Part shown: positions 2,636-5,654 of the stretch, one piece after another
How the letters are laid out: each line of letters starts with the position of its first letter
Position numbering within the stretch: position 1 is the stretch's first letter
NCBI GenBank assembly: GCA_001803565.1
Contig: MHDQ01000149.1
Location: forward strand, 1 to 5,789
Reading direction: 5' to 3'
DNA from: Nitrospinae bacterium RIFCSPLOWO2_12_FULL_45_22
Lineage (GTDB): Bacteria > 2-12-FULL-45-22
DNA length: 5,789 nt
Notes under the pieces: generated by a model
The model's input: the letters and a program-made list of their open reading frames with translations, nothing else
What the model was told of the DNA's origin: nothing
Database searches by the model: none
Program-made: the position numbers and the translations under genes

Positions 2636-3001
2636 GTTTAGGCCAAAGCGAACTTTTTCTTACCCCAGGGTTTACCCAGTGATGAGCCGAGGAATAGATA
2701 TAGCTTGAGTAACCATCTTATATGTTTGAGCAAAATTTTTTCTCTGTTTTAACAGGTGCTCTTCAAAAACAATGGAGAGAGCTTTCTGTGGGCTTCAACA
2801 TGAATCGGTGCAAGGGTAATGAATGGGCATACATGGGATTTTTCCTCTATGCTTTTAGGATATTGCCTTGAAGACAGAGGTTTTGGTTGTGAGAATAATG
2901 GGAGATTTATGACAGGCTTGTTAAAGAGGGTATAATGTTTCAAGCATTCTGACAAAAGTCATTCCTTACGGTTTGAAATAAATGCCCCTCTGGGAATTAT
3001 T

Positions 3002-3018
3002 ATGTAAAATATTTTACT
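3002..3018. promoter_or_regulatory. Upstream operator palindrome O1
   Basis: The 17-base ATGTAAAATATTTTACT contains the perfect 14-base palindrome GTAAAATATTTTAC (3004-3017). An identical 17-base copy lies 31 bases downstream. This copy sits just upstream of the -35 hexamer. The two-fold symmetry and duplication are typical of a repressor site, and the natural candidate is the HTH protein encoded at 3435-4277. Confidence 0.75.
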
Positions 3019-3026
3019 CAAAATTC

Positions 3027-3055
3027 TTGACAATGTAAAATATTTTACTTACACT
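3027..3055 (+). promoter_or_regulatory. Sigma-70-type promoter of the toxin-antitoxin-protease operon
   Basis: A perfect -35 hexamer TTGACA (3027-3032) is followed by the optimal 17-base spacer and a fair -10 hexamer TACACT (3050-3055, four of six). The start of transcription would fall near 3062, about 65 bases before the first gene. The spacer is filled exactly by the second copy of the operator, so repressor binding would exclude RNA polymerase. A secondary extended -10-like TGCTATAAAT lies at 3084-3093 without a good -35. Confidence 0.75.
3033..3049. promoter_or_regulatory. Core operator palindrome O2, within the promoter spacer
   Basis: This is the second exact copy of the 17-base ATGTAAAATATTTTACT, with the palindrome at 3035-3048. 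It fills the spacer between the -35 and -10 hexamers. The 31-base centre-to-centre distance from the first copy is close to three helical turns, so two bound dimers would lie on the same face of the DNA and could act cooperatively. Confidence 0.78.
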
Positions 3056-3126
3056 CTTGTTGATGAAGCTAAGTTTTCTCTGTTGCTATAAATCTCTAGA
3101 TATCAGACATGGACATGGAATTTTAA

Positions 3127-3423
3127 ATGACCTTAGAAGAAATACAATCATTGGTGTTAAAAGGCAGATACGATTATTCTAATAAAGTCAGATCTTTTAT
3201 GGAAGAAGGATGGTATTCTGAGGAAGATTTGGAGTGTTGTATTAGAAGTGCTACAAAGATTTACAAAGTGGAGAAAGATGAATTAAAAGCCTCAGTTGAC
3301 GGAAAGAAGTATGTAATCATTGGGAAAGATACATATGGATGTTTATTCTATACCTGTGGCAAAGTCATTAAGGATGACGAGGGTAAGCTTTATTTCTTTA
3401 TTACAGCACATAAAGCAGATTAA
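3127..3423 (+). CDS. DUF4258-like putative toxin of a type II toxin-antitoxin pair
   Basis: This is a small, soluble 98-residue protein with no signal peptide or membrane segment. Its plan resembles the DUF4258 group of small proteins: an N-terminal helix (TLEEIQSLVLKGRYDYS), a second helical stretch with YSEEDLECCIRSATKIYK around residues 30-47, then beta strands DGKKYVIIGKDTYGCLFYTC (58-77) and a last strand LYFFITAHKAD (88-98). DUF4258 genes are often found next to MqsA/YgiT-type antitoxins, and a RelE- or MqsR-like RNase role is commonly assumed. That function is inferred, and no catalytic residue is certain here. It is the first gene after the operator-bearing promoter and lies 11 bases before the antitoxin-like gene. 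The ribosome binding site is weak (GGA about eight bases upstream), which could keep toxin synthesis low. A five-codon in-frame frame stops directly before its ATG. Confidence 0.7.
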   Translation: MTLEEIQSLVLKGRYDYSNKVRSFMEEGWYSEEDLECCIRSATKIYKVEKDELKASVDGKKYVIIGKDTYGCLFYTCGKVIKDDEGKLYFFITAHKAD

Positions 3424-3434
3424 AGGGGAAAACA

Positions 3435-4277
3435 ATGTTTAATTATATTTGTGAAGAGTGCGGTAAGGGTACTGTCAAAGAAAAAGTTTTTGAAAATTAT
3501 CGAACAAAAATTAAAGGGTATCCTTTTGTTGTTGATAAGGCCATAATTGGCGTTTGCGATCGATGCGGAGCGAAACATTTTAAGGCGAATGAAACAAAAC
3601 GTTGGGAAGAACTTTATAACAAGGATTTAGAATTAAAACATATTTCACTACTACCTGACGAAATTGAAGCAGTAAGGAAATCTTTGGGCCTTTCGATGGA
3701 AGATTTTGCGTATCTTATCGGGTGTACACGTCAATCGATTTATAACTGGGAGAAAAAAGATAGAGAAAAGCCCCAATCTCGAATGGCCGATTTACTTATA
3801 AAACTTGTTCGTTATTCTTTTGAGGTTGGCAAAGTAGATGTTATCAATTTCCTTACAGAAGAGGCCAAAAAATTAGGAATTACGATAGAAGTGGCAAAAC
3901 AAACTTCTTCTACCCTTATAGGTAACATAATCCACCTTAATGTTAAAAAAGTTCCCAGAGATTATTTTCAAAAGCCAAAAGGCAGTCTTTCATTAGCCGC
4001 TGTAGCAGTTGAAGAAAGAGAGATCACAATAGCTGAATCCTTGGAGCAAGAATTAACTGGCATTTTACATTATGACTATGGAAGGGCTGCTCTATCGTTA
4101 GAGATAGAAAAAAATACAATTGGATTAAAGATCGTTGATTTTGAACTGGTAACAAATAATGATAGGCATTATATTAGGCAGGATGTAAAAATTGAAGATA
4201 ACCGCATATTATTGCTCTCGGATACAGAATATACAGAAGATAAAGTTAGAGAAATCATTTTAAAGCCGAAATCCTGA
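3435..4277 (+). CDS. MqsA/YgiT-like zinc-finger plus XRE-HTH antitoxin with a long C-terminal extension
   Basis: This 280-residue protein begins with a zinc-binding module: Cys6-x2-Cys9 and Cys41-x2-Cys44 (CEECGKG and CDRCGAK), the arrangement of MqsA/YgiT-type antitoxins, where it binds the toxin. An XRE-type helix-turn-helix follows at about residues 73-127 (LPDEIEAVRKSLGLSMEDFA, then IGCTRQSIYNWEKKDREKPQ), the DNA-reading part. Family antitoxins are usually 70-135 residues and end there. This one continues for about 150 residues of unrecognised, mixed-strand sequence (for example SLSLAAVAVEERE and GLKIVDFELVTNNDRHYIRQ). It has a good ribosome binding site (AAGGGGA, 3423-3429). It sits between the putative toxin and the Lon-like protease with gaps of 11 and 12 bases. 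It is the likely repressor at the two upstream palindromes. The antitoxin role rests on family and context. The extension could be a protease target, a sensor or an immunity domain. Confidence 0.8.
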   Translation: MFNYICEECGKGTVKEKVFENYRTKIKGYPFVVDKAIIGVCDRCGAKHFKANETKRWEELYNKDLELKHISLLPDEIEAVRKSLGLSMEDFAYLIGCTRQSIYNWEKKDREKPQSRMADLLIKLVRYSFEVGKVDVINFLTEEAKKLGITIEVAKQTSSTLIGNIIHLNVKKVPRDYFQKPKGSLSLAAVAVEEREITIAESLEQELTGILHYDYGRAALSLEIEKNTIGLKIVDFELVTNNDRHYIRQDVKIEDNRILLLSDTEYTEDKVREIILKPKS

Positions 4278-4289
4278 AAAAGGTCAAAA

Positions 4290-5462
4290 ATGGGTATGGA
4301 GGAGCATGTAGAAAGGTTAAAAAGACTGAAAGGGCTTCTTCGCGAAGCCTTCATTCTGCTTCCTGCTTTTAATAATAGACAAGAGACTCAACCATTAGAC
4401 GAGCTTTTTAATAATATTTGTAGATTACTTTTCACCGATGATTTTTACCTTCATCTGTGGGATGAAGGAGCCCTTTATCAATTAGTAGAGTTTTTCAAGG
4501 CTAAAACACCTAATCCAACAGTATACGGAGAGCGGCTTACTAAACTCTCAGAGCGTAAGAATTTTGTCCAACAGACAAATGAGTTCTTTTTCTCAATCCT
4601 TAGTCATGAATTTCCTATGGAAGAAGTTGTCAATAGAGTATCTGCACTTACCAAGATTGATGAAGCAGCCTTCTTGAAACTTAAGGCTTCAGGCCATTTG
4701 CAGGATATTAGAGCAAGTAAGTCTCCTGCCTCAGAAAAGATTGAGGCTTTCATTGAACATCTTATAAATGATATGGGCGTCAATTTTGGAGAGGCAGAAG
4801 ACGGTTTGAGGCAGGTTCTTGCTTCTATAAAGGCACAGGAAACCCCGGGAAGGGCAAACGCCCTTTTGGTTAATACATCAAGTAATGCAGGGATTCTTAT
4901 TCCATTATCAACTCGTCTCCAACTCGGTAAAGGTGAAGTACACTGTCTCATATCTAGTGGTGGCGATTTCAAGACAGCAATAGATAGAGCCAGGCATTTG
5001 TTGCTCAGCAACGGTTTTCTCAATAGGATGGACGATGTAGATTATTCATTAGATATTACCGAGGCAAGCTATAGTGGGGATTCAATAGGGTTGGCTGCTG
5101 CTATTGCTATGTATGGTGCTGCCACAAAGCAATCAATAGACCCTTATACATCCTTTACAGGTAATATAAACCTTGAAGGTAACCAATACAAGATTACACC
5201 TGTTAAAGGAATTAGCCAAAAACTTGATGCTGCTATACTGAACGGATGTCGGCGTGTTTTTATCCCTATACAGAACCACTCAGAAATTAGTGGCGATTAT
5301 ACTAAAAAATTACAGATTATTTGTGTTAGTGATATTACAGATGTACTATTGAAATTACAGACTTCACTTGAACCTCTCCCCGGCGATACACTCCAGATAA
5401 GAAAAATTAATTTTTTACGGGCGTATTGCCAAAATACCCTCAACCCCGATGCCACACTTTGA
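4290..5462 (+). CDS. Lon-type (S16) peptidase-domain protein without ATPase domain
   Basis: The last 200 of 390 residues match the proteolytic domain of Lon. Ser265 in the motif SYSGDSIGLAAA takes the place of the nucleophile (GPSAG in Lon). TSFTGNINLEG at 287-297 follows. Then comes VKGISQKLDAA at 305-315, where Lys311 aligns with the second dyad residue (Lys722 of E. coli Lon), and next the usual GCRRVFIPIQN. Dyad spacing is 46 residues against 43 in E. coli Lon, with the extra residues in the intervening loop. No Walker A or B motif is present, so there is no AAA+ unfoldase. Residues 1 to about 185 are helical and unrecognised. The start ATG has AAAGG six bases upstream and lies 12 bases after the antitoxin-like gene, so it belongs to the same operon. 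A role in cleaving the antitoxin or toxin is inferred. The last 15 codons are antisense to the nucleotidyltransferase gene. Confidence 0.85.
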   Translation: MGMEEHVERLKRLKGLLREAFILLPAFNNRQETQPLDELFNNICRLLFTDDFYLHLWDEGALYQLVEFFKAKTPNPTVYGERLTKLSERKNFVQQTNEFFFSILSHEFPMEEVVNRVSALTKIDEAAFLKLKASGHLQDIRASKSPASEKIEAFIEHLINDMGVNFGEAEDGLRQVLASIKAQETPGRANALLVNTSSNAGILIPLSTRLQLGKGEVHCLISSGGDFKTAIDRARHLLLSNGFLNRMDDVDYSLDITEASYSGDSIGLAAAIAMYGAATKQSIDPYTSFTGNINLEGNQYKITPVKGISQKLDAAILNGCRRVFIPIQNHSEISGDYTKKLQIICVSDITDVLLKLQTSLEPLPGDTLQIRKINFLRAYCQNTLNPDATL

Positions 5463-5654
5463 TGGAATATAGCGGCCGATCCTTTCAAGAAAAGGCAGGC
5501 TTGACTCTCTTAAGATGATAAGTAAATCTATGTCACTCCCTGGCACTGCTTCGCCTCTGGCAAAAGAGCCAAAGAGTATCACTTGCTCAATTTCAGGATA
5601 GTGTTCTCGAAGTTCCTTAATAGATTTTCGTAATGAGTGAGAAAGATTAGCCAT
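5415..5654 (-). CDS. MNT-type nucleotidyltransferase domain protein, probably 3'-truncated or frameshifted
   Basis: This 79-residue protein has the minimal nucleotidyltransferase core: FGSFARGEAVPGSDIDLLI, with Gly29-Ser30 and the metal-binding pair Asp41 and Asp43. Related small proteins often pair with HEPN toxins as antitoxins that AMPylate them, or occur alone. No HEPN gene is visible here. Family members of this type normally continue after the SKCGIGVE stretch into a strand such as VFPYT and a further helix. Here the frame goes GIGVEGILAIRP and stops. Removing one G near 5437 would give GVEVF in another frame, so a frameshift or a nearby rearrangement breakpoint is likely. The ATG shares its A with the argG stop codon (TAATG), so expression should be coupled to argG. 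Its 3' 48 bases are antisense to the end of the protease gene. The catalytic core itself looks intact. Confidence 0.72.
   Translation of the reverse strand: MANLSHSLRKSIKELREHYPEIEQVILFGSFARGEAVPGSDIDLLIILRESSLPFLERIGRYIPSKCGIGVEGILAIRP

Follow-up and report, generated by a model that had tools for sequence, protein, structure and literature searches.

What do some 150 additional residues contribute to an MqsA-family antitoxin whose gene is directly followed by one for a Lon-type peptidase? The antitoxin in question is encoded in a window (the full stretch of DNA analysed here) that comprises a whole contig of 5,789 bases. In this window, four housekeeping-type genes of the minus strand precede a cassette of three closely spaced plus-strand genes, located at positions 3127-3423 (98 aa), 3435-4277 (280 aa) and 4290-5462 (390 aa). 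The GC content of the cassette genes (33-40%) is low compared with that of the upstream genes (49%), a difference consistent with acquisition.

The locus is best read as a three-gene toxin-antitoxin-like cassette, which would encode a DUF4258-like toxin, an MqsA antitoxin also acting as autorepressor, and a Lon-type peptidase. We tentatively propose, as a plausible rather than a probable reading, that the extension serves the third protein as a docking site or target, the most attractive form of this idea being regulated cleavage of the antitoxin. The main alternatives are that the extension constitutes a second neutralising domain directed against the third protein, or an independent sensor or dimerisation domain.

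Architecture of the cassette

The features of the cassette, two relatives of which (L003 and L004) are described below, are as follows.

3001..3056, plus strand: promoter/operator with two TGTAAAATATTTTAC palindromes (3003-3017 and 3034-3048)
3127..3423, plus strand: putative toxin of 98 aa, a distant relative of DUF4258 (BECR fold) according to hhalign
3435-4277, plus strand: MqsA-family antitoxin gene, 280 codons (4277 is the end of the stop codon)
3435..3809, plus strand: canonical MqsA part, with a CxxC...CxxC zinc finger (residues 6 to about 62) and a helix-turn-helix (HTH, residues 77-121)
3810..4277, plus strand: C-terminal extension (residues 126-280), with a helix to about residue 146, a linker (about 147-190) and a predicted seven-strand beta region (about 192-277)
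4290..4829, plus strand: N-terminal part (about 180 aa) of the third protein, without a Pfam match and conserved in L003 and L004
4845..5351, plus strand: Lon peptidase domain, LonB-like (Lon_C PF05362, E=9.7e-10)
5430..5462, plus strand: foreign tail of the third gene (blastn homology ends at 5431)

Both copies of the TGTAAAATATTTTAC palindrome are free of mismatches, and none of 200 shuffles reached as many. The second copy is flanked by a -35-like box, TTGAC(A) at about 3027, and a -10-like box, TACACT at about 3051, and fills the spacer. The two palindromes and the TTGACA/TAYACT frame are kept in both relatives, with one mismatch, in L003. Nucleotide homology between the window and the relatives (79% identity, blastn) extends from 2998 to 5431 and stops sharply at both ends, its start coinciding with the two TGTAAAATATTTTAC copies. 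This layout appears to be that of an autorepressed toxin-antitoxin operon, in which the antitoxin would bind to the palindromes.

The 98-aa protein did not reach the threshold of the DUF4258 HMM (PF14076), and its assignment as a putative toxin comes from an hhalign comparison with 11 DUF4258 proteins (71% probability over 88 columns, spanning the full length; pairwise E 3.8e-5), whose reversed control gave 0.1%. The DUF4258 toxins have the BECR fold and occur both fused to MqsA and paired with it (PMC11980606).

Judged by its sequence, the product of ORF 3435-4277 is an MqsA-family antitoxin with a zinc finger followed by an Xre-type HTH. The MqsA-family model TIGR03830 matches residues 6-125 (E=1e-18; 67.3 bits, above the 61.8 cut-off), PF15731 matches residues 6-121 (25.5 bits, under its 30-bit cut-off), and HTH_3 was found at residues 77-121 in a Pfam search. 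In an AlphaFold model, in which the zinc-finger region has a pLDDT of mostly 76-86, the N-terminal part has E. coli MqsA as its nearest structural match (3gn5; Foldseek, E=1.5e-4). All family matches stop at residue 121-125. An earlier, sequence-only reading had stated that the residues from about 130 onward (3822-4277, i.e. codon 130 to the stop) have no place in canonical MqsA; the matches bear this out, and its coordinates were right to within a few residues, with the known part ending nearer residue 125.

In the relative L004, the region beside the cassette (3755-8543, the last gene being completed in L021) has genes for a TPR plus cold-shock-domain protein and a large Eco57I-like restriction-methylase, together with a small gene that has a DUF2283 partner. 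It lies near gyrB, dnaN and dnaA, and is by appearance a defence-type spot.

The extension: sequence, predicted structure and conservation

Searches with the extension yielded no known domain. Residues 130-280 alone gave no match below E=0.05 in Pfam, PADLOC or PHROGs and one implausible match (E=0.02) in NCBIfam, and a profile of the three available sequences found no credible match in the PDB; nor did any family match explain the extension by a known domain of unrelated function. Several candidate identities were rejected. The antitoxin has no match to the Panacea model PF13274, which L049 and L053 match at 1.7e-19 and 1.2e-17, respectively. Comparisons of the extension with the N-terminal part of the Lon-type protein, its Lon domain, its TBP part, its RNase part, the toxin and DUF4258 revealed no resemblance (hhalign, P 0.08 or worse), and weak matches in three other genomes were at chance level across 386 genomes (the best, 4.5e-4 for one genome, was partial).

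Structure prediction with AlphaFold, based on three sequences, gave a pLDDT of 38 for the extension alone and of about 50 for its beta part in the full-length model. The architecture in this low-confidence model is a helix (126-146), a loop, and then seven consecutive strands (about 192-277). The mixture of beta strands and helices envisaged from the sequence was roughly right at this low confidence, with the correction that the beta part dominates. Beyond the N-terminal MqsA part, the full-length model gave only insignificant Foldseek matches, and the fold is not assignable.

In both relatives the extension is stop-free and colinear with the window copy, to which it is 61-66% identical, and its dN/dS relative to them is approximately 0.19-0.22, a rough value with dS of about 1, near saturation. 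The linker (about 147-190) is its least conserved stretch in the three-copy alignment. On comparison of the three copies, the extension is a genuine coding sequence under purifying selection, and it is probably functional yet fast-evolving, because its dN/dS of about 0.2 lies above the values for the MqsA part and the toxin. It would be a mere passenger if it were a captured fragment without a specific role, kept through the recent spread of the cassette. The very small number of copies and the fact that the extension evolves fastest within the antitoxin (dN/dS, window versus relatives) would suit such an origin, which we consider very unlikely in view of a dN/dS of about 0.2 and a frame undamaged across a dS of about 1.

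Occurrence of the extension and its linkage to the Lon-type gene

A pattern-based scan, which covered one genome for each of 84,980 species and finds close relatives only, identified only two relatives of the antitoxin, in L003 (a Thermodesulfovibrionales MAG) and L004 (a Nitrospirae CG02 MAG). Both are Nitrospirota MAGs, and their antitoxins are 75-76% identical to the window copy across all 280 residues. Profile searches of 386 domain-wide genomes and 395 genomes of the relatives' phylum revealed no further full antitoxin and no further extension. The antitoxin had no match in viral contigs, phages and plasmids, and the extension and the toxin had none in the viral sets. The extension is rare, since the scan of 84,980 species, the searches of some 780 genomes and those of viral, phage and plasmid sequences gave L003 and L004 alone.

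The other long MqsA-family proteins that we looked at have either a Panacea domain or a short tail, and none has this extension. While the present extension is new, extended MqsA-family regulators as such are not: the earlier view that an extension is unusual for MqsA/YgiT proteins holds for this one, and fails in general, given the Panacea-bearing forms and a tail described in Vibrio cholerae.

The order of the genes (98-aa gene, extended antitoxin, Lon-type gene) is common to all three copies. It had been suggested to check whether antitoxins with the extension are always followed by the protease gene. The Lon-type gene is next in 3/3 copies, and no extension lacking a protease neighbour was present among the genomes searched. 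Neither partner was found alone in these genomes, and a Lon profile detected no Lon-type gene of the cassette apart from the extension in 176 genomes of the order. This linkage supports a possible contact between the extension and the third protein, in line with the earlier suggestion that the protease may recognise or cut the extension. Taken on its own it does so weakly, because three related cassettes are concerned and the co-occurrence may be plain co-inheritance.

The same linkage bears on the possibility that the extension is a sensor or dimerisation domain, which would bind its own ligand or partner and tune repression or toxin release independently of the third gene. Ligand-binding and dimerisation domains typically sit after an HTH, an all-beta domain is predicted beyond the linker, and the extension is common to the three copies and under purifying selection, all of which would fit this role. 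Against it are the invariable linkage to the Lon-type gene and the lack of the extension in all other MqsA-family proteins seen, and we consider it rather unlikely.

The third gene: a Lon-type peptidase, fused to RNase HIII in the relatives

The third protein of the window contains a match to Lon_C (PF05362) of 38.8 bits, above the 21.1 cut-off, and in a profile alignment with Archaeoglobus fulgidus LonB (1z0b) the GDS and GxxxK motifs of the Lon domain are aligned. The predicted Ser-Lys dyad consists of Ser265 (5082-5084) and Lys311 (5220-5222), and is invariant in the three copies. A suspected loss of the catalytic lysine (K to S/R) was rejected, as the LonB alignment places this residue at K311. 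Pfam searches revealed no AAA+ domain in the third proteins of the window, L003 or L004, and no SAVED or CARF domain; models of CARF/SAVED-Lon proteins match the Lon part only. By these alignments, the third protein belongs to the Lon (S16) fold with its dyad, without an AAA+ motor.

In L003 and L004 the third protein is 779 residues long, and its Lon peptidase domain is followed by a TBP/RnlA-like stretch and then by an RNase HII/HIII domain. The last of these matches RNase_HII (PF01351, E=1e-27) and keeps the D-E...D motifs of RNase HIII when aligned to 2d0a, while the RnlA-like TBP similarity (PF15935, E=1e-4) is below the cut-off. TBP-like domains of RNase HIII bind DNA-RNA hybrids (PMC3710099). 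Searches of viral and plasmid sequences gave no relative of this Lon-RNase HIII fusion, and we found no description of such a fusion beside a toxin-antitoxin pair in the open-access literature.

Both the RNase HII/HIII domain and the TBP-like domain are absent from the window copy. Its third gene diverges at about 5431-5439 and ends some ten unrelated residues later, the relatives running about 400 aa further, and no copy of the missing RNase HIII part was found elsewhere in the genome (85% complete). A minimal nucleotidyltransferase gene (5415-5654, minus strand; PF01909 positions 1-44 of 93) is seemingly cut at the same point, which suggests a single event behind the damage to both genes, whether a deletion, an excision or an assembly join; deletion and misassembly are both possible at this junction. 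Owing to the loss of the RNase part, the window copy is probably damaged or altered. The prediction that the next gene encodes a protease was correct as regards a Lon peptidase domain with its dyad, and needs amending in that an intact gene encodes Lon fused to RNase HIII, the window gene being truncated. A rare three-gene toxin-antitoxin variant with a Lon-RNase HIII partner is the more apt description of the finding.

A Lon-type domain was also seen at the C-terminus of a protein of about 820 aa in the Moraxella phage Mcat3 (L023, 3114-5576), where its gene is the last one before attL and possibly represents cargo.

Selection and recombination across the cassette

Comparison of the window with its relatives gave dN/dS values of 0.04-0.06 for the MqsA part of the antitoxin, 0.06-0.08 for the putative toxin and 0.19-0.27 for the third protein's N-terminal part, all of them rough, with dS of about 1. 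The extension therefore evolves about as fast as this N-terminal part and much faster than the MqsA part or the toxin. Such similarity of pace would be expected if the extension and this N-terminal part face each other.

Between L003 and L004, a tract corresponding to window positions 3744-4207, i.e. to most of the extension, contains 3.5% differences, compared with 17.5% and 21.5% in its flanks; a stretch as poor in differences did not arise in any of 2,000 shuffles. A second tract of low divergence between the two begins in the Lon domain. Because the first tract sits between divergent flanks, the alignment indicates that the cassettes recombined and that the extension moved without the N-terminal half of the Lon-type protein. 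The extension was thus shared recently while this half is divergent, which argues against tight partner-by-partner coevolution of the two.

Possible role of the extension and comparison with known systems

The intact third protein resembles a nuclease as well as a protease, and the extension might directly neutralise it as a second toxin, making the antitoxin bivalent in a Panacea-like manner. Panacea is an independent neutralising domain that acts on diverse toxins (PMC8832971) when joined to HTH or MqsA-type modules, and the genomes searched do contain MqsA-family N-termini joined to it. In length the extension equals a whole antitoxin, the third gene follows directly, and the third protein has the RnlA-like TBP similarity, albeit below the cut-off. 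As a rule, RNase HIII serves in housekeeping repair and is not toxic. This speaks against a bivalent antitoxin, as do the findings that the extension resembles neither Panacea nor any antitoxin in sequence and that the window, where the nuclease is gone, retains it. On balance, neutralisation of the third protein seems improbable to us.

The arrangement also recalls chaperone addiction, in which the extension would leave the antitoxin unstable or unfolded until the third protein, with its peptidase domain as a binding platform, holds it, in the manner of ChAD and SecB. In TAC modules, too, MqsA-type antitoxins are extended at the C-terminus and accompanied by a third gene dedicated to them, and the V. 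cholerae MqsA carries a short chaperone-addiction tail at residues 136-176 (PMC5105189). Gene order is identical to that of TAC modules. Described ChAD tails are about 30-50 residues long (PMC5105189), in contrast to the 150 residues found here, and the third gene does not encode SecB and retains the catalytic dyad. Identity with SecB/ChAD was rejected, the third gene being Lon-type and the length of the extension unfitting; a tail merely analogous in function appears decidedly unlikely.

Returning to docking and regulated cleavage, we infer a chain of protein contact, cleavage, hybrid sensing and toxin release that might run as follows. The zinc finger of the antitoxin would neutralise the toxin, and its HTH would bind both palindromes and repress the operon. 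The third protein would engage RNA:DNA hybrids, e.g. those of phage or plasmid replication, through its RNase HIII/TBP part. The motor-less Lon part would dock on the beta domain of the antitoxin and clip the latter, perhaps within the weakly conserved linker, so that the toxin is freed. Counting against this, the window copy keeps the extension despite its lost RNase part, though the loss may be recent. In E. coli, Lon, ClpXP and LfgB all degrade MqsA (PMC10846083), and a C-terminal tail on MqsA-type TAC antitoxins can serve the product of a third gene (PMC5105189). The complete, self-contained trigger, in which a Lon-RNase HIII fusion detects RNA:DNA hybrids, cleaves a purpose-built beta domain of the antitoxin and releases a DUF4258-type toxin, has in our view a low likelihood.

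The closest functional parallel to the proposed mechanism would be the sensor-fused Lon protease CalpL, which cleaves its partner CalpT (PMC11417357). In the CRISPR-associated CalpL/CalpT/CalpS system, as predicted for the cassette, a motor-less Lon peptidase domain is fused to a nucleic-acid-related sensing module, and the partner gene encodes an inhibitor sitting on an effector. The cassette differs in that RNase HIII replaces SAVED and that cleavage by its Lon domain is a prediction; CRISPR genes or a sigma factor were not seen in the window, L003 or L004.

Timely inactivation of the antitoxin is a long-standing open question of toxin-antitoxin biology, and most proposals invoke general host proteases. 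If the mechanism is true, three genes would suffice for a direct test of the trigger, the cassette combining a peptidase of its own, a module recognising nucleic acids and a special antitoxin domain.

Other systems share individual features with the cassette. TAC modules (MqsRA-SecB, HigBA-SecB, CmdTAC) likewise have three genes and a C-terminal antitoxin extension, which serves, or in the cassette may serve, the product of the third; this product is in the cassette a Lon/RNase HIII protein and not SecB, and the extension is far longer and dissimilar. MqsA-Panacea antitoxins also carry a second C-terminal domain on an MqsA N-terminal part, whereas the extension is predicted to be beta-rich and lacks a Panacea match. 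With MqsR/MqsA (E. coli YgiT) the cassette has in common an antitoxin with a zinc finger and an HTH, a toxin gene in first position and palindromic operators; it differs in its DUF4258-like toxin without recognisable MqsR, in the length of the antitoxin (280 versus approximately 131 aa) and in the third gene. Finally, in DUF4258-MqsA/YgiT pairs (PMC11980606) a small DUF4258-like protein is encoded directly before an MqsA-type protein, as here, although the toxin of the cassette is too divergent for PF14076, its antitoxin has an HTH and the extension, and a third gene is present. An ordinary pair of DUF4258 and YgiT-zinc-finger genes is found elsewhere in the same genome (L010, 1211-1767, minus strand).
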